Shown here: positions 1,349 through 5,898 of the stretch, piece after piece
Layout: each line of letters starts with the position of its first letter
Position numbering within the stretch: position 1 is the first letter of the stretch
Assembly: GCA_017478685.1 (NCBI GenBank)
Contig: JAFVDC010000042.1
Span: 1-6,497 of the forward strand
From: Bacteroidales bacterium
Lineage (GTDB): Bacteria; Bacteroidota; Bacteroidia; Bacteroidales; UBA932
Length of the DNA stretch: 6,497 bases
Direction: 5' to 3'
Position numbers and translations under genes: made by a program
Notes under the pieces: model-generated
Database searches by the model: none
What the model saw: only the letters and a program-made list of their open reading frames with translations
Told to the model about the DNA's origin: nothing

Positions 1349-1371
1349 TCTTTTTCCGGCTTGTCTTTCCG

Positions 1372-1428
1372 GTCATTCCCGGCTTGACCTTTCGCCTTTC
1401 CCCGTCATTCCCGGCTTGACCGGGAATC
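1372..1428 (+). repeat. REP-like GTCATTCCCGGCTTGACC repeat, one partial and one full copy
   Basis: The 18-mer GTCATTCCCGGCTTGACC occurs at 1372-1389 and again at 1404-1421, a 32-nt period. Only the second copy is completed to a hairpin: ATTCCCGG (1407-1414), loop CTTGA, CCGGGAAT (1420-1427). A further fragment, CCGGCTTG, is seen at 1356-1363. Short, GC-rich, imperfectly palindromic intergenic elements of this kind are typical REP sequences, the substrates linked to RAYT proteins, and a RAYT gene lies 1.2 kb away. The second copy directly abuts the outer end of the left inverted-repeat arm. Confidence 0.7.
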
Positions 1429-1541
1429 TGTCGTAGAATGTAACCTGTTGTTGATCACCGTGTTATGTAAAACCCTCCCCCTCGAATCAAGGGGGAGGGT
1501 TTTACATATGTATCTTTAAATCAATCATTTTCATTCGACGG
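1428..1541 (-). repeat. Left arm of a 114-bp inverted repeat (end of msrA plus palindrome)
   Basis: Read from 1541 down to 1428 on the minus strand, this arm aligns without gaps to 3498-3611 on the plus strand. A hand count gives roughly 73% identity. From inside to outside the shared parts are: the last six codons and stop of each gene (including AAATGATTGATTTA), a 12-nt spacer, a 45-nt palindrome, 20 poorly conserved bases, then TTACATTCTACG followed by NCAG. All block lengths are equal in the two arms. The outermost base touches the REP-like repeat. Confidence 0.75.
1464..1508. terminator. 45-nt perfect palindrome after the fRMsr-MsrA gene (bidirectional terminator / REP-like)
   Basis: TATGTAAAACCCTCCCCCT (1464-1482) and its exact reverse complement (1490-1508) form a 19-bp stem with a 7-nt loop. 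It starts 12 nt after the stop codon of the fusion gene. The GC-rich core is flanked by A4 and T4 tracts inside the stem, so it should terminate transcription from either side. It is the partner of the palindrome at 3531-3575: both have a 19-7-19 layout, and the two base-pair differences between them are compensated in both arms. Confidence 0.75.
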
Positions 1542-2462
1542 CCACCAGCGAATATGACAGTACCCGCCAGGATTTTTGTCAAGATAATCCTGGTGATATT
1601 CGTCGGCCGGGAAAAAACAGCTGATAGGAAGTAATTCTACGGGGAATTCCGTAACTCCAAGTGATTGCCTGGTGGCGGCAAAGACTTCAGAAAGCAAGGT
1701 GGCATCCTGCGCATTGTCATAATACACGCCAGTGCGGTAACGGGTGCCTTTATCCTCTCCCTGCTGATTGAGGCTAAGGGGATCTATTACCTTGAAATAG
1801 AGTTCCGTCAACTTTTTAAGTGAGACAACTTCCGGATTGTATCTGACATGGACGCATTCTGCATGGCCGGTGGTATCTGTGTAAACTTCCTCATAGGTAG
1901 GGTTTTGGGTTTGTCCGTTTGCAAATCCTACTTCTGTAAAGTCCACACCATTGATGCATTTGAAAAACTTCTGCGCTCCCCAAAAGCAGCCTGCCGCAAA
2001 CCATATGTCCTTCTGCGGGCCGTAAACAAGACCTGCAATTTTCTCCAGATACTTCCTGTCGATCTCATCAAAGGAGCCAATCTCTTTACTGTCTATATCC
2101 AGGACAGCTGTGATTGTGTTCTTATGCCAAATCGGAACCACTATTTCACTCCTTGACTCCGAACTACAGGCGATATGGCCGGGAAACTGTTCAACATCCG
2201 GAACAATGACGGTGCGTTTTTCCTTCCAAGAGGTTCCGCAGACGCCACGCCCGTAACCTATTCTGGTACAGGCTATCGGCCCTTGAAATGCTCCAAGGAC
2301 CAGGTCCTCCCCATTTACACGGTAAAAACCGGTCCACCAGAAACCCATTTCACGGTGCAGGAGTGCAGCCAGATTGGCCATATTGGCAACAAGGTCCGGT
2401 TCTCCGGACAAAAGCCCTTGGGCTTGAGGAAGTAGTGACTGGTACCGTTCTTCTTTTGTCAT
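1521..2462 (-). CDS. msrA: Bifunctional free-methionine-(R)-sulfoxide reductase / peptide-methionine (S)-S-oxide reductase
   Basis: A 313-residue cytosolic repair enzyme with two reductase modules. Residues 1-147 are a GAF-type fRMsr (MsrC/YebR family), which reduces free methionine-R-sulfoxide. All three family cysteines are present, in ACTRI (C65), GVCGTS (C75) and HIACSS (C99), the last followed by SEIVVPI. Residues 150-303 are MsrA, which reduces methionine-S-sulfoxide. It has GCFWG with nucleophile C159, Y190 (NPTY), E202 (TGHAE), D237 and Y242 in QGEDKGTRYRT, and a likely resolving C302 in NPGGYC. Both modules therefore look active and together cover both sulfoxide stereoisomers. The frame is open 55 codons further upstream, but homology begins at MTKEERYQ and a -7 box lies within the extension, so the ATG at 2462-2460 is used. 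The last codons (PSNEND) and stop lie inside the inverted repeat and resemble the RAYT terminus (PLNRND). The gene is divergent from the RAYT gene. Confidence 0.93.
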   Translation of the reverse strand: MTKEERYQSLLPQAQGLLSGEPDLVANMANLAALLHREMGFWWTGFYRVNGEDLVLGAFQGPIACTRIGYGRGVCGTSWKEKRTVIVPDVEQFPGHIACSSESRSEIVVPIWHKNTITAVLDIDSKEIGSFDEIDRKYLEKIAGLVYGPQKDIWFAAGCFWGAQKFFKCINGVDFTEVGFANGQTQNPTYEEVYTDTTGHAECVHVRYNPEVVSLKKLTELYFKVIDPLSLNQQGEDKGTRYRTGVYYDNAQDATLLSEVFAATRQSLGVTEFPVELLPISCFFPADEYHQDYLDKNPGGYCHIRWWPSNEND

Positions 2463-2487
2463 GGTATAAATGTTTTGCACTAAGGTA

Positions 2488-2495
2488 CAAAAATA
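2488..2495 (-). promoter_or_regulatory. -7 promoter element of the fRMsr-MsrA gene
   Basis: TATTTTTG on the minus strand (2495-2488) fits TAnnTTTG. It would start transcription near 2481, about 20 nt before the ATG. No TTTG box is found at the expected 19-21 nt upstream (the bases there read GTCA), so the -33 half is weak or an activator is needed. Confidence 0.45.
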
Positions 2496-2550
2496 TTTGG
2501 AAATTTGAGACAATATGACGATATTGCATCCGATGACCGATTTTTCCGTT

Positions 2551-2575
2551 AAACAACTGCAATAATTAGTTGTTT
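2551..2575 (+). promoter_or_regulatory. Hairpin and T-tract abutting the RAYT start codon
   Basis: AAACAACT (2551-2558) pairs with AGTTGTTT (2568-2575) across a 9-nt loop. The run of T continues to 2579, and the RAYT ATG begins at 2583. An 8-bp AT-rich stem this close to the start could limit translation or transcription of the transposase, or be a protein-binding dyad. No Shine-Dalgarno or TAnnTTTG box was found before this gene. The 120-bp divergent gap (2463-2582) otherwise shows only the msrA-side promoter. Confidence 0.4.
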
Positions 2576-2582
2576 TTTTGTT

Positions 2583-3518
2583 ATGGGCGGAAATAGTCGG
2601 ACTTTTTATCCTAATGTCTTGAATCATTGCTATCAGCGGTCAGCAGATGGCGGAGTTTTATTCTACAACCAACTTGATTATCTGGTCTTGTTTACCATTG
2701 TTTGTAAAGTGGCGCGGCGGTATCGGGTGCAAATACTTGCAATGTGCCCCATGCCGGACCATATCCATTATTCAATTACGGCAGTCTCAAAAAGAGACCT
2801 TACCCTCTTTATGAGAGATTGTTCAAGTTTATACGCAAAGGAATTCAACCGTGTCTGTCATAGAACCGGTCCGGTGTTTGAGGCGCCTTTTGGGAGTGCC
2901 CCGAAGTATACGGATAAAAAGGTTCGCACAAATCTGATATATGTATGGAACAACCCTCCGGAGCGCAAACTTGTAACTAAAGCAGAAGATTACAGGTGGA
3001 ATTTCCTTGCATACGCATCATCCGATCACCCGTTTTCCGAAAAACTGGTGATAAGGAAATCACGTTGGCCGCTTCAAAAGGCCGTGAAAGAGGTTAAAGC
3101 CGCTTTCATGGCAGGCCGGCACCTTCCTTACGCTATGCTGAAAAGGCTGTATGCACCATTGACAAATGACGAAAAGCAGCAGATCACGGATTTCATAATT
3201 AGCACATACAATGTAATTGACCATGAAGCCGCCATGAGTTACTTCGGTAATTATGAAACAACCCTTACTGCTGTTCACTCTACAACAGGAAACGAATATG
3301 ATATCAAAGAGGAAATCTATACAAGCAAGTCTGACAAGCACTATGCATCAATGACGAACATTGTCATGCGTGAACTGGCCCCGCCTGATATTCACGATAT
3401 TCTCAGTTTGCCCAAAGAGAAAAAATATGAAGTATTCCAGCTACTGCGGCGCTATTCATATGCTATGTCAGATCAAATTGCAAAGTTCCTTCATTTGCCG
3501 TTAAACAGAAATGATTGA
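2583..3518 (+). CDS. REP-associated tyrosine transposase-like protein (Y1/HUH family, RAYT)
   Basis: A 311-residue protein whose first 150 residues form a Y1 (IS200-like) HUH nuclease domain. This family nicks and joins single-stranded DNA at hairpin-bearing sequences; RAYTs are linked to spread of REP palindromes. The N-terminus NHCYQRSADGGVLFY is typical of Bacteroidota members. The metal-binding HUH motif is HIH (H60-I61-H62) in CPMPDHIHYSI. The catalytic tyrosine is probably Y84 in SLYAKEFNR, and the terminal block YVWNNPPERKLVTKAEDYRWN (about 120-140) corresponds to the usual YI..NPV..G.. segment. Residues 150-311 are extra compared with short RAYTs and end in RRYSYAMSDQIAKFLHLPL (about 289-307), which looks like a helix-turn-helix that could read DNA. 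There are no disrupting stops, so it is probably intact. It is divergent from the fRMsr-MsrA gene and ends in the right repeat arm. Whether it moves anything today is unknown. Confidence 0.85.
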   Translation: MGGNSRTFYPNVLNHCYQRSADGGVLFYNQLDYLVLFTIVCKVARRYRVQILAMCPMPDHIHYSITAVSKRDLTLFMRDCSSLYAKEFNRVCHRTGPVFEAPFGSAPKYTDKKVRTNLIYVWNNPPERKLVTKAEDYRWNFLAYASSDHPFSEKLVIRKSRWPLQKAVKEVKAAFMAGRHLPYAMLKRLYAPLTNDEKQQITDFIISTYNVIDHEAAMSYFGNYETTLTAVHSTTGNEYDIKEEIYTSKSDKHYASMTNIVMRELAPPDIHDILSLPKEKKYEVFQLLRRYSYAMSDQIAKFLHLPLNRND

Positions 3519-3611
3519 TTTATAAAGATTTATGTACAAACCTCCCCCTTGAAATCAGGGGGAGGTTTGTACATAATATGTTCAGTATTAGAAAATTACA
3601 TTCTACGCCAG
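3498..3611 (+). repeat. Right arm of the 114-bp inverted repeat (end of the RAYT gene plus palindrome)
   Basis: This is the counterpart of 1541-1428. It begins in the RAYT codons for PLNRND, passes the TGA at 3516-3518, a 12-nt spacer and the palindrome at 3531-3575, then 20 diverged bases, and ends with TTACATTCTACG (3596-3607) and CCAG. Its outer edge is two bases from the end of gltX. In the first 21 bases (the coding tail) the five differences from the left arm are all transitions. Confidence 0.75.
3530..3576. terminator. Perfect palindrome between the convergent RAYT and gltX genes (bidirectional terminator / REP-like)
   Basis: TATGTACAAACCTCCCCCT (3531-3549) and its exact complement (3557-3575), extended by one T-A pair, form a 20-bp stem with a 7-nt loop. 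It lies 11 nt after the RAYT stop and about 37 nt after the gltX stop. The C/G-rich core with AAA and TTT tracts inside the stem suits termination from both strands. It matches the palindrome at 1464-1508 in size and sequence. Confidence 0.75.
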
Positions 3612-3612
3612 G

Positions 3613-5394
3613 CTATATGCGCCCAAGGCGTTCGGCCACATAACCCATGCGGCGGGCAAATTCACGCCGGCCGATGAAGGAGAGGATGGCGGCGATGCCA
3701 AGGCCGGAAGCCGCACCGGTGAGAGCCAGGCGCAGGCTGTTCATGACCTTGCCCATGGGGTATTCCCTCATCTTGATGTAGTCTTCCAGGACCTTCTCCA
3801 GGGTGGGGGCGTCGATGGGGCCGCGGTAAACGTCAAGGTCGTCGAAGCCGAATTCGGCACCGGAGATGTACTGGCAAACCTCGAAGCAGTGCTCGTAGTG
3901 GTCCGGATTCCAGAATTTGTCTACGTCCTTGGCAAGGAAGGGCGCAGTCTTGGTGTCGTCGTACACTTTGGCGCGGGGATCCACGGGCCTGTTGGTGTCT
4001 GAGGCTTTCTGGGGAAGACCGGCGCCGGCCTTTATGCCGAAGGTCTCAAAGTCTTTGGGTGCCACGAAGAGATAGGCGGCGATGTCCCACATATCGGCCA
4101 CGAAGGTGGCGCGCTCTTTCACAAGCTCCACCACTGCCTCCACGTACTCACGGGTGAAGATGTGGTTCCCGAAATCTGCGCCGAAGCCCTCGAAGGACGC
4201 ACCGGCGGTGAGGGCGTTGCAAGGGCAGTCCACCACTTTGCAGCCGTGATTCTCAAGCACCGGGATGAAGAGGTCCGTAAGCTGGGCGGTGGTCTTCAGC
4301 CTGAGGTATTCCTTGTTGTACCACTTTGCCTTTTCCGGATTGAACTTGGCGCCGGCCTTCTGGACTTTGTCCAGGGAGAAGGCTTCCACAAGCTCCGGCA
4401 GGGTGAACATTTCGCGGTCGTCACCGGGATTCCATCCAAGCATGGCAAGAAGGTTCACGAAGGCCTCGGGGAAGTATCCGTCCTCGCGGTAACCGTGTGA
4501 CAACTCTCCGGTTTCGGGGTTCTTCCATGCAAGGGGGAACACGGGGAAACCAAGTTTGTCGCCGTCACGCTTTGAGAGTTTCCCGTTGCCAACAGGCTTC
4601 AGAAGCAGGCTCAGGTGGGCAAAGCGAGGCATGGTATCTGTCCAGCCGAAGGCCTCGTAGAGCATGTAGTGAAGCGGCAGCGAAGGAAGCCACTCTTCTC
4701 CGCGGATAACCTCCGTGATTTCCATGAGGTGGTCGTCTACGATGTTTGCAAGGTGGTATGTGGGGAGTTCATCGGCCCTTTTCCAAAGCACTTTGTCATC
4801 CAGGGTATCGGTGTTCACCTCCACGTGGCCGCGGATGAGGTCGTCCATCTTCACAATGCGGTTAAGGGGCATCTTGAAGCGGATGGTCCAGTCCGTGGTG
4901 GTGTCCAGAAGGCGCTTTACTTCGTCTTCCGGGAGGCTCAGGGAATTGCGGAGGCTGCCGCGGGTGGCGGCGTTGTACATGAAGGTCTCGCCTTTGGATT
5001 CGGCCTCTGTCCTGCGCGCGGTAAGTTCATCGGCGCTGTCAAACGCGTAATAGGCCCAGCCTTTCTCAATGAGTTCCTCTGCGTACTTGCGGTAGAGGGG
5101 CTTGCGCTGGCTCTGGCGGTAAGGGGCATGGGGATGTTTTGCCGATGCTTCCTCAACTACCTTTCCGTTTTCCACTCCTTCGTCGGGGATGATACCGCAC
5201 CAGTTAAGGGCCTCTATGATGTACTGCTCCGCTCCAGGCACAAAGCGGTGGGAGTCGGTGTCCTCTATACGGATAATGAAATCTCCGCCCTTTTGCTTGG
5301 CATAGAGATAGTTATACAGTGCCGTACGCACGCCGCCCATGTGCAGCGGACCGGTAGGTGAAGGGGCAAATCTTACGCGTGTTCTTCTTTCCAT
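3613..5394 (-). CDS. gltX: Glutamyl-tRNA synthetase
   Basis: A cytosolic class I aminoacyl-tRNA synthetase that charges tRNA-Glu with glutamate, using ATP. The 593-residue product begins MERRTRVRFAPSPTGPLHMGGVRTALYNYL, carrying the HIGH-type signature as HMGG (18-21). The KMSKS-type loop is KLSKRDGDKLGFPVFPL (272-288), a form familiar in Bacteroidota GltX. The anticodon-binding region follows from about residue 330 to the end. The frame is open upstream through the rpiB region, but family homology starts at the ATG at 5394-5392 and a -7 box precedes it. As recalled, Bacteroides GltX is about 505 residues. The extra length seems to sit mainly in the C-terminal half, at about 386-411 (with DCPC) and 453-486. 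It is convergent with the RAYT gene and divergent from rpiB. It could in principle be a non-discriminating enzyme that also charges tRNA-Gln; this cannot be told from sequence alone. Confidence 0.96.
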   Translation of the reverse strand: MERRTRVRFAPSPTGPLHMGGVRTALYNYLYAKQKGGDFIIRIEDTDSHRFVPGAEQYIIEALNWCGIIPDEGVENGKVVEEASAKHPHAPYRQSQRKPLYRKYAEELIEKGWAYYAFDSADELTARRTEAESKGETFMYNAATRGSLRNSLSLPEDEVKRLLDTTTDWTIRFKMPLNRIVKMDDLIRGHVEVNTDTLDDKVLWKRADELPTYHLANIVDDHLMEITEVIRGEEWLPSLPLHYMLYEAFGWTDTMPRFAHLSLLLKPVGNGKLSKRDGDKLGFPVFPLAWKNPETGELSHGYREDGYFPEAFVNLLAMLGWNPGDDREMFTLPELVEAFSLDKVQKAGAKFNPEKAKWYNKEYLRLKTTAQLTDLFIPVLENHGCKVVDCPCNALTAGASFEGFGADFGNHIFTREYVEAVVELVKERATFVADMWDIAAYLFVAPKDFETFGIKAGAGLPQKASDTNRPVDPRAKVYDDTKTAPFLAKDVDKFWNPDHYEHCFEVCQYISGAEFGFDDLDVYRGPIDAPTLEKVLEDYIKMREYPMGKVMNSLRLALTGAASGLGIAAILSFIGRREFARRMGYVAERLGRI

Positions 5395-5418
5395 CTTGTG
5401 ACAAAAGTTTTGAAGATG

Positions 5419-5426
5419 CAAATTTA
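5419..5426 (-). promoter_or_regulatory. -7 promoter element of gltX
   Basis: TAAATTTG on the minus strand (5426-5419) matches TAnnTTTG and lies 25 nt before the gltX ATG, so the leader would be under 20 nt. A TTTG box at the expected distance is not apparent. It lies back to back with the rpiB -7 element, 13 nt away. Confidence 0.5.
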
Positions 5427-5439
5427 CCTTTTTTGTCCG

Positions 5440-5447
5440 TACCTTTG
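5440..5447 (+). promoter_or_regulatory. -7 promoter element of rpiB-truB
   Basis: TACCTTTG matches TAnnTTTG, with the rpiB ATG 20 nt downstream at 5467, giving a short leader of about 13 nt and no Shine-Dalgarno. No convincing TTTG box is seen about 20 nt upstream; that position lies inside the divergent gltX promoter. Confidence 0.5.
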
Positions 5448-5466
5448 TATGTAAAACCATAAAAAC

Positions 5467-5898
5467 ATGAAAATCGGCATTTGCAACGACCACGCAGGCG
5501 TGGAGTACAAGTTCAAACTGGTGAAGATGCTTCAGAAAAGGGGCATCGAGGTTGTGAATTACGGCACTGACACAGAGGAAAGCGTAGACTACCCGGATTA
5601 TGCCCACAGGCTGGCCCAGGCCGTGGAGGGCGGGGAAGTGGACCTTGGCATTGCCCTTTGCGGCACCGGAAACGGCATGGCCATCACCCTCAACAAGCAT
5701 CAGGGAATCCGTGCGGGCCTTGCATGGGGAACGGCCATCGGCCATCTTGTGGCTCAGCACAACAACGCCAACGTCCTTGTGCTGCCGGCCAGGTTCATCA
5801 GTTACCCCCTGGCATCGGCCATAGTGCGCGAATGGCTCGACACCCCCTTCGAGGGCGGCCGCCACCAGAGGCGCATAGACAAGATGCCCGTGAAATGA
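5467..5898 (+). CDS. rpiB: Ribose-5-phosphate isomerase B
   Basis: RpiB interconverts ribose 5-phosphate and ribulose 5-phosphate in the non-oxidative pentose phosphate pathway, feeding nucleotide synthesis; it is cytosolic. The 143-residue protein has the normal family length. It begins MKIGICNDHAGVEYKFKL, with the D8-H9 substrate-binding pair. The catalytic cysteine C65 is in ALCGTGNGM, followed by the NKHQGIRAG phosphate loop region. H98 lies in AQHNNANVL, and the C-terminal GGRHQRRIDKM (about 130-140) supplies the phosphate-binding arginines. All key residues are present. Its stop overlaps the truB start as ATGA, implying translational coupling. LacA/LacB-type sugar isomerases are related, but the cysteine context and length favour RpiB. 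Confidence 0.95.
   Translation: MKIGICNDHAGVEYKFKLVKMLQKRGIEVVNYGTDTEESVDYPDYAHRLAQAVEGGEVDLGIALCGTGNGMAITLNKHQGIRAGLAWGTAIGHLVAQHNNANVLVLPARFISYPLASAIVREWLDTPFEGGRHQRRIDKMPVK

Follow-up and report, generated by a model that had tools for sequence, protein, structure and literature searches.

The 6,497-nt stretch of Bacteroidales DNA analysed here (the window) holds, beside gltX, a RAYT gene and a divergent fRMsr-MsrA fusion gene (the Msr gene) between two similar modules, which raises the question of what joins a transposase and a repair gene in one bracket. The initial annotation offered two answers: a RAYT-type mobile unit with a non-canonical cargo gene, or copying of the RAYT's 3' module onto its neighbour. 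We consider a different account probable, in which the RAYT is resident and domesticated, cognate elements bracket it, the Msr gene is an enclosed passenger and the elements are joints of rearrangement.

The two modules and the genes between them

A repeat search of the window returned an inverted pair (1428-1542 and 3497-3611, 73% over 115 nt), within which 80 of 111 positions are identical between 1431-1541 and 3498-3608 in inverted reading. The ungapped 110-nt cores of the modules have 80 matching positions. Outside the modules, the window's best real 110-mer reaches 45/110, and 200 first-order Markov shuffles of that remaining sequence give at most 51/110. The modules proposed initially are thus real and align well above shuffled sequence, with their length corrected from 114 to 111 bp in the window; the repeated unit is 110 bp in most aligned relatives. 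The shared layout described for them also holds, as the outer 12-mers agree at 12/12 positions and the inner hairpins at 37/45, and the stop codons of the Msr and RAYT genes sit within their own modules. The outer 12-mer is a terminal arm, the counterpart of the module's first 13 nt (CCGTCGAATG..), that is, of the gene's 3' end. The units are individually imperfect palindromes, with self-matches of 72/111 and 66/111, and for this reason a direct alignment of the pair still agrees at 66/111 positions, 14 fewer than in the inverted reading. An Rfam search of the window gave no family at gathering score.

The gene identities given at the outset were borne out. The Msr gene matches PF13185/PF01590 (GAF) and PF01625 (MsrA) above cut-offs, and its translation contains GCFWG and three GAF cysteines. 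The RAYT scores 30.3 bits against Pfam Y1_Tnp (cut-off 23), and D59, H60, H62, Y120, N123, N124 and P125, which we take to be its catalytic residues, are invariant in 43 aligned homologues. Its AF2 model is closest to the E. coli RAYT 4er8, a kinship that rests on the predicted fold because a PDB sequence search with the RAYT gave no match. With 44.7 bits against NCBIfam REP_Tyr_transpos (NF047646, cut-off 80), the protein lies outside that equivalog, and its wider kinship comes from Pfam, fold and flanking repeats. Behind the N-terminal Y1 domain follows a predicted all-helical C-terminal part of ~150 aa with no Pfam match. TIRYT proteins have a helix-turn-helix (HTH) C-terminal extension; no HTH family appeared among the Pfam matches of the 43 members (E up to 1), save one weak winged-helix match in a single member (PF23713, E 0.02). 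A PHROGs search gave no match for the RAYT.

Features of the window discussed in the text (L001 is the closest relative)
Feature	Position	Strand	Remark
Element 1, double-palindromic, RAYT-linked, 111 bp	1431..1541	-	Outer edge coincides with the breakpoint to L001; first codons encode PSNEND, the end of the Msr protein, plus its stop
Element 2, 111-bp copy	3498..3608	+	Overlaps the RAYT stop; end lies 4 nt short of the gltX stop codon
Inner hairpin of element 1	1464..1508	.	Stem ~20 bp
Inner hairpin of element 2	3530..3576	.	20-bp perfect stem, 7-nt loop
fRMsr (GAF)-MsrA fusion gene, 313 aa	1521..2462	-	Counted from the ATG at 2462; passenger within the bracket
Intergenic region of the divergent pair, 120 nt	2463..2582	.	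Without element
RAYT (TnpA_REP-like HUH tyrosine transposase), 311 aa	2583..3518	+	
gltX	3613..5394	-	Apparently relocated along with the bracketed pair relative to L001
Right breakpoint versus L001	5427..5430	.	gltX promoter spacer just upstream of rpiB

A dispersed family of double-palindromic elements

Each module is a complete double-palindromic element of ~110 bp in which outer arms and inner stem covary (87.3% of cells paired; 117 double changes versus 52.8 in shuffles). The outer arms are 87.7% paired in 32 elements, for many of which one arm was the search pattern and the other arm free. Outer arms complementary at 10 or more of 13 positions flank 72/191 inner hairpins but 0/191 with shuffled flanks, a control that kept the chosen hairpin centre and did not repeat its choice, and the length mode is 110 (55 loci); because six of these 55 loci overlapped others, a recount without duplicates was made, giving 62/173. 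A test for pairing between the 19-nt internal segments gave no support, and small side hairpins in each half, just 64-68% paired, are not claimed. The first-arm tags of the 32 aligned elements are GTCG (14), GTTG (8), GTAG (5), GTTA (3), GTAA (1) and GTGA (1), the preceding CCGT being partly fixed by the search pattern; other element types (with GGCGC.. ends, in L001) have no GTAG/GTGG-like tag.

Fixed-length copies of the element occur at unrelated sites in relatives' genomes; of the source strain itself, the window displays the two flanking copies. Of 15 RAYT-bearing genomes scanned with a covariance model, 14 have 24-124 strand matches and the remaining one has 10; one further RAYT genome has 13, whereas among six genomes without a detected RAYT the model gave 0 in five and 6 in one. 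We caution against reading these values as copy numbers: scoring was limited to 150 candidates per genome, many elements appear twice, once for each strand, and elements from seven of the searched genomes went into building the model. The search for further module copies suggested by the initial annotation therefore returned scattered copies in relatives and near-absence without a RAYT, and the possibility it had raised that all relatives share one gene order with no copies elsewhere does not apply, since the order differs and copies exist. Both modules belong to a dispersed family of ~110-bp REPIN/TIR-like elements that is linked to RAYTs. One genome (G240) has five RAYT candidates, none above threshold, and may hold a more distant RAYT.

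The elements adjoin stop codons, at a median distance of 5 nt over 94 flanks, and lie preferentially between convergent genes (32/74 placed elements versus 106/579 adjacent ORF pairs), counts that come from mechanically called ORFs at loci chosen for holding RAYTs or elements. This convergent bias, the A-rich and T-rich tracts that flank the inner stem in most copies and a terminator-like score on one strand of each window element (two found, no commoner than the shuffle mean of 2.7) would suit bidirectional terminators kept between convergent genes, to which the RAYT is now unrelated. We consider this very improbable as the whole explanation, for it offers no reason why 13-bp outer arms should pair, why the length is fixed, why element types are specific to particular RAYTs (described below) or why genomes without a RAYT are nearly free of elements; a terminator role may hold in addition to the RAYT linkage.

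The RAYT bracket and its passenger

Elements stand on both sides of 20/43 scanned RAYTs (23/43 have no pair above thresholds), a set in which the 5' hairpin of L009 is counted although judged spurious, and from which L252, a duplicate of L030, was left out. Partner elements of one RAYT are on average 0.676 identical (20 units), compared with 0.421 to elements of other units in the same genome (n = 16) and 0.439 in other genomes (n = 364), and the own partner is the best match in 17/20 units. The elements are thus cognate to the neighbouring RAYT, and the bracket belongs to the RAYT. Bracketing pairs are direct in 11 cases and inverted in 8, with 1 tie and many small margins; the inverted arrangement noted initially therefore stands for the window (80 versus 66/111) but is not constant across loci, such pairs being equally often direct. 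A standard terminal-inverted-repeat transposon was rejected for this reason and because no other site with the unit turned up.

Of 34 Msr-free RAYTs, 18 are preceded within 330 nt by a 5' element, at a distance of 62-251 nt, and 15 showed none over the 330 nt searched. The window and five relatives that have a 5' element carry the fRMsr-MsrA gene in the interval from that element to the RAYT; since 18/34 Msr-free RAYTs have such an element, it is the RAYT's own bracket that encloses the Msr gene, and copying of the 3' module onto a neighbour, though conceivable, becomes unneeded, as about half of Msr-free RAYTs already have a 5' element. The two distance classes of 5' elements are partly set by design, because a 330-nt stretch was searched at Msr-free RAYTs and one of 900-1500 nt upstream at the nine Msr loci; when every kind of hairpin is counted and the search reaches 1600 nt, the nearest one nevertheless falls into the same two classes (window, L003, L016, L218 and L001 versus L006, L012, L226-L228, L234, L239, L240, L242 and L243), with some RAYTs at a greater distance from theirs (L224, L249 and L251 among them). 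Enclosure without an intervening element is not universal, because L001 has a further, decayed element between Msr and RAYT. L002, L004 and L018 lack most of the Msr-side element.

An alternative interpretation is that one element inserted behind the Msr stop and another behind the RAYT, independently and without forming a unit. The placement of elements against stops and between convergent genes agrees with this, as do resident genes such as ssb within brackets at other loci, the 15/34 Msr-free RAYTs without a 5' element and L001, where the position of the 5' element between Msr and RAYT keeps the reading alive. We nonetheless regard it as unlikely, because the window RAYT would then be without the 5' element that 18/34 Msr-free RAYTs have, and because fused Msr genes away from RAYTs have no nearby element, except for a 94-bp candidate in G440.

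Fused Msr genes were found in 20/400 genomes of the genus. A RAYT lies beside the fused Msr in eight of the 20, all eight adjoining gltX; 11 have neither RAYT nor gltX nearby in the stretches examined, and no Msr-RAYT pair was found at sites other than gltX among the 20 fused-Msr genomes (400 searched). RAYT clades sampled at gltX also remain at gltX, an observation subject to sampling bias (L252 again left out), and brackets without Msr occur at the gltX locus in L006 and L012. This distribution, the mixed orientation of bracketing pairs and a right breakpoint away from any element (below) speak against a RAYT by which the 2178-bp bracket (element-Msr-RAYT-element) would move in its entirety as an IS-like unit with cargo. 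Such a unit would account for the window having the bracket and gltX between rpsO and rpiB, a junction uninterrupted in L001 (96.9% identical to the window over gltX), with its left break at the outer edge of element 1, and it would suit the RAYT of a different lineage (38%) that L001 has at gltX with its own matched elements; on balance we think it improbable. Of the mobile unit first proposed, the RAYT-linked modules and an Msr gene inside the RAYT's bracket stand, whereas nothing shows that the Msr-RAYT pair transposes as a unit, the pair having been found only beside gltX. The locus is a REPtron/TIRtron-like RAYT bracket with Msr as passenger.

In L001, rpsO adjoins rpiB and gltX lies beyond truB, so the rpsO-gltX junction of the window, initially taken as the reference frame, appears from these gene orders to have arisen by rearrangement in this strain. 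On its right side, the window insertion breaks beyond gltX, at a junction that has no element or repeat and joins two promoters. That junction would also fit an assembly chimera in the window, with the relatives' order real, yet this is hardly credible given that the left junction falls at an element edge and the neighbouring genes on both sides are intact. The findings on elements and bracket, which also draw on relatives, would stand regardless. The orientation of gltX and of the Msr-RAYT pair varies among L003, L016, L001 and L218, with elements at the joints; between L003 and L016 the entire block is inverted while the flanking orf412 is 99% identical. Unit and single element were compared at two sites. 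L005 differs from L001 by the RAYT and one element, and four gltX-truB junctions (L008, L010, L032 and L040) have one element and neither RAYT nor Msr. No element was present at 28/45 gltX-truB junctions, mostly in more distant relatives. Species thus appear to differ by inversion or loss of inter-element segments, and elements mark the joints; we infer these rearrangements between species because the relatives are MAGs of different species.

For a resident, domesticated HUH transposase bracketed by cognate elements, with the fRMsr-MsrA fusion enclosed between 5' element and RAYT at the gltX locus of the genus, the following course may be proposed. The element would fold as a single strand through its outer arms and inner stem; the RAYT would cut and rejoin it adjacent to the arms, which would spread solo elements, mostly to sites directly behind stop codons; and the element pair would serve as joints between which DNA is inverted, or removed with one element left. 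We infer both cleavage by this RAYT and its role, instead of host recombination, as maker of the rearrangements, which could be RecA- or replication-driven at any palindrome. A bolder version, which we hold possible though not likely, is a living segment-shuffling system in which the RAYT, or the host via RAYT-made nicks, repeatedly inverts, excises (with one element left) and re-inserts segments at elements, including RAYT plus Msr and even gltX; if true, the cargo of this RAYT locus would be under selection and its RAYT would shape gene order beyond spreading small repeats.

Relation to known RAYT systems

Among the open-licence papers searched on RAYTs, no description was found of a RAYT locus that encloses Msr and has inversions at its elements. 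For uncultured rumen Bacteroidales, the locus contributes three points: a double-palindromic element that is nearly constant in size and varies in type with its RAYT; a cellular repair gene that lies inside a RAYT bracket in several species; and probable local inversions and losses at whose joints elements stand. Should the RAYT be responsible for the rearrangements, the locus would offer a direct handle on RAYT cost and benefit. Judged by what defines the known classes, the elements have the inverted, hairpin-forming end motifs and dispersed single copies of REPINs, and the transposase gene lies between two long non-GTAG repeat copies, as in TIRtrons, in the window and at other loci. Cognate repeats are both flanking and dispersed in relatives, as for RAYT/TnpA_REP, with two flanking copies in the window; an IS200/IS605-like element with cargo would recur as a unit at several sites, but the pair was found only beside gltX.

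Like REPINs and their RAYTs as described in PMC3116915, the elements have two inverted end motifs around a spacer, a single-strand hairpin, dispersed single copies and their own type near each RAYT. They differ in an end motif that is CCGTNGAATG in the aligned type and not a uniform GTAG-tagged REP, and in a 45-nt centre that is a strong covarying hairpin and not a free spacer. In PMC6006769, the genes of TnpA_REP subclass 2.6, from Bacteroidetes, likewise have atypical secondary structures at their flanks that recur elsewhere in the genome, and subclass 2.1 consists of long proteins with a C-terminal extension, there linked to TIRs. The window protein, with 311 aa and the motifs DHIH and YVWNNP, matches no row of the table given there exactly, and its C-terminal ~150 aa without Pfam match sets it apart from the subclasses as described there; the solved chain of E. 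coli TnpA_REP (PDB 4er8) has 165 residues and is without the long helical C-terminal part.

Also close in organization is the system described in PMC3733652, in which a RAYT-like gene is flanked by long, partly self-complementary non-GTAG repeats, standard REPs being 20-40 bp. As here, those repeats lie at short distance from the gene and sometimes overlap it, dispersed copies are moderately abundant, and a repeat family matches a given transposase. The window locus departs from that description, which mentions no enclosed gene, in holding a second gene within the bracket, in having ~110-bp double palindromes whose pair may be direct, and in placing its elements at rearrangement breakpoints.

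Paired elements and their family

The initial annotation described two inverted modules bounding a divergent gene pair, Msr (an fRMsr(GAF)-MsrA fusion) and RAYT (a TnpA_REP-like HUH transposase), and this is borne out by a repeat search that recovers both copies. The two 111-bp units are identical at 80/111 positions, compared with 51/110 for the best 110-nt match across 200 Markov-shuffled versions of the remaining window. Taken singly, each also forms an imperfect palindrome, in which outer arms of 13 nt enclose a central stem of ~20 bp, and both genes run into their unit, which supplies the last codons and stop (C-terminal tails MSR ...WWPSNEND and RAYT ...LPLNRND). Immediately outside element 1 lie two REP-like palindromes of CGTC type (CGTCATTCCCGGCTTGACCGGGAATC), the second of them a full copy.

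Coordinates of features in the window and in relatives
Feature	Sequence	Position	Strand
CGTC-type palindromes	window	1366-1430	
Element 1, Msr 3' end	window	1431-1541	-
Msr	window	1521-2462	-
RAYT	window	2583-3518	+
Element 2, RAYT 3' end	window	3498-3608	+
gltX	window	3613-5394	-
gltX/rpiB promoter region	window	5394-5467	
RAYT upstream of ssb	L238	627-2273	
RAYT upstream of ssb	L245	6795-8924	
RAYT upstream of ssb	L246	7476-9665	
RAYT with ~180-aa ORF	L249	8414-10251	
RAYT with ~180-aa ORF	L251	6512-8240	
Esterase gene and RAYT	L224	3421-5934	
Separate msrA and fRMsr	G006, C55	349-1263	

The Msr protein has GAF and MsrA domains, both above cut-off. A Y1_Tnp domain was found in the RAYT, with a score below the NCBIfam cut-off; its HUH and Tyr motifs are invariant across 43 homologues, and its AF2 model (mean pLDDT 90.9) has E. 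coli TnpA_REP (4er8) as nearest structure. The C-terminal ~150 residues (about 142-311) form a long, all-helical and mostly well-predicted part of the model, for which no Pfam family common to members was found.

A gltX scan of public genomes yielded 80 loci from Bacteroidales MAGs; going by the record titles, most of the nearest come from rumen samples. In eight genomes of these loci the arm CCGTNGAATGNAA had 1 to 17 matches per genome, against 0 to 2 for a control pattern, and in five (G002, G006, G009, G010 and G012) some matches pair up as forward and reverse arms that start 97 bases apart (94 in one), making 110-bp elements at unrelated sites. Across 32 aligned elements, many with one arm set by the search pattern and the other arm and stem free, arms and stem pair and show compensatory changes: 87.3% of cells are standard pairs and 117 carry double changes, versus 52.8 (sd 5.6) in shuffles, and pairing falls steeply when the partner column is shifted by one. 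The 19-nt segments between arm and stem pair with each other no better than shuffles. Outer arms were complementary at at least 10 of 13 positions in 72 of 191 inner hairpins from 55 loci, some overlapping (62/173 with duplicates removed), versus 0/191 with shuffled flanks, and the lengths of arm-bearing hairpins have a sharp mode at 110. Searched with a covariance model, all but one of the 15 RAYT-bearing genomes yielded 24-124 strand matches; the exception, G007, had 10, and G220, a further genome with one RAYT, had 13. Among genomes with no RAYT at the search threshold used, the model gave 6 matches in G240 and none in G231, G235, G253, G255 and G295, the last counted as RAYT-free since it is not among the 84 genomes listed with a match.

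Brackets around RAYTs and the genes they enclose

When the best upstream and best downstream hairpins of 43 RAYTs were taken under fixed thresholds and search ranges, 20 RAYTs had hairpins on both sides. Element identity averaged 0.676 within these 20 units, compared with 0.421 between RAYTs of the same genome (n=16) and 0.439 between those of different genomes (n=364), and the own partner was the best match of all in 17/20 units (it ranks second in L006 and L239, and 13 in L009, whose 5' hairpin is spurious); thus, each fully bracketed RAYT is flanked on either side by an element type of its own. Six of the nine Msr loci have a 5' element, each time with the Msr gene in between, at 1041 (window), 1049 (L003), 1051 (L016), 1063 (L022), 1065 (L218) or 1240 nt (L001) from the RAYT, so the bracket's 5' partner is the element at the Msr 3' end. 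An unconstrained hairpin search gave the same result for the window, L001, L003, L016 and L218; L001 differs in detail, a decayed element lying additionally between Msr and RAYT. The 5' element is largely lost in L002, L004 and L018, where a terminal arm of the otherwise mostly vanished Msr-side element persists in the coding tail (WWPSNEND in L004); this surviving arm is an element fossil within a protein.

An alternative interpretation is that the elements behind Msr and RAYT were inserted separately and do not form a unit. Besides L009's spurious hairpin, a 5' element lies 62-251 nt upstream in 18 of 34 Msr-free RAYTs, and 15/34 have none in the 330 nt upstream searched; because of these 15 we give slightly more weight to independent insertions, which we still consider improbable, and slightly less to the best-supported reading given below.

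Leaving out 4 elements at locus ends, 74 were placed: 32 between convergent, 30 between co-directional and 5 between divergent genes, and 7 within an ORF. Among adjacent ORF pairs at the same loci, 106 are convergent, 360 are co-directional and 113 are divergent. Distances from element to gene have a median of 5 nt to a stop codon on the 3' side (94 flanks) and of 59.5 nt to a start on the 5' side (40 flanks).

Other genes accompany some RAYTs. One RAYT lineage lies directly upstream of ssb in three genomes, RAYT and ssb being flanked by elements or element candidates. In L249 and L251 a RAYT lineage has a similar-looking, co-directional upstream ORF of ~180 aa, without Pfam match, within or beside the bracket. 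At L224 an esterase gene is divergent from the RAYT; a hairpin follows the esterase and an element follows the RAYT, which resembles the layout of the Msr pair.

The gltX locus across relatives

The divergent pair adjoins gltX in 7/80 loci (L001, L002, L003, L004, L016, L018 and L022) and in an eighth, L218; it lies between gltX and truB in seven of the eight, and in L016 gltX lies between the pair and truB. The gltX-truB junction holds a bracketed RAYT without Msr in L006 and L012, a single element with neither gene in L008, L010, L032 and L040, and one element in L023, whose RAYT is on gltX's other side; in L007 and L017 a single element sits at the gltX 3' end, away from truB. No element was found in 28 of 45 loci examined. 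L005 has Msr, no RAYT and one element in the MSR-gltX spacer, the left flank of which matches the Msr side and the right flank the gltX side of L001; the difference is therefore RAYT plus one element.

In locus maps framed by orf412 (forward) at one end and truB (reverse) at the other, the order in L003 is gltX forward, MSR reverse, RAYT forward. Relative to L003, the whole block is inverted in L016, gltX and the pair are each inverted in L001, and the pair alone in L218. orf412 is the same gene in all four (85-99% identical to L003; 99% for L016), and elements are present at these joints, those that are weak being one in L016, all three in L218 and the RAYT-gltX one in L001.

In the window's own REARRANGEMENT, the gltX DNA shares 96.9% identity with that of L001, the closest relative. 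L001 has rpsO directly beside rpiB, and the counterparts of window bases 1430 and 5430 adjoin there (4260 and 4262). Compared with L001, element 1, the pair, element 2 and gltX are inserted at the rpsO-rpiB point. On the left, the break coincides with element 1's outer edge, beside a CGTC-type palindrome; gltX homology to L001 stops at most 3 nt from the outer edge of element 2, and the right break falls in the gltX promoter spacer, without an element; that this arrangement is an assembly chimera is very improbable. The palindrome copy adjoining the breakpoint is present too at L001's uninterrupted junction. The divergent promoter region common to gltX and rpiB is apparently recombined, the part beside gltX being as in L001 and the remainder from the rpiB side.

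The gltX tree groups the window with L001 (99/99), next with L002-L005, L016 and L018 (99/98). In the RAYT tree, the window's copy falls in a clade of eight (99/98) and that of L001 in a separate deep clade (100/100) with L009, L023, L033 and L218; all members of both are at gltX, partly a sampling effect because the rows were taken from gltX loci, one Msr locus and the best matches to the window's RAYT. Since L006's Msr-free RAYT is nested inside the window's clade, Msr was probably lost there. The gltX-locus Msr genes, L218's excepted, group together with moderate support (92/88). Two RAYT lineages, each with elements of matching type, thus share a single Msr lineage, a pattern that favours exchange of RAYT and elements in place over a freely moving unit.

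The fused Msr occurs in 20/400 genomes of the genus and in 2 of 199 drawn from the family (G001 included). Eight of the 20 have a RAYT beside Msr, all adjoining gltX, and G005 has the fusion at gltX without RAYT; in the 9-17 kb around Msr, the remaining 11 show neither RAYT nor gltX, and no element except a 94-bp candidate in G440. In G281, truB and rpiB lie ~5 kb from the fused Msr. In several relatives that lack the fusion, msrA is followed closely by a separate fRMsr stretch, the reverse of the fusion's domain order.

Comparison with REPIN/RAYT systems

The best-supported reading, to which we attach fairly good confidence, is that this RAYT locus resembles a REPtron or TIRtron, has REPIN-like elements of ~110 bp as its own and encloses a passenger gene, the elements being likely joints of local inversion and one-element loss. 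A REPIN/RAYT-like way of working (PMC3116915, PMC3733652, PMC6006769) has better support than assignment to any single named class: the GTAG tag varies, and the protein can be given a subclass only tentatively.
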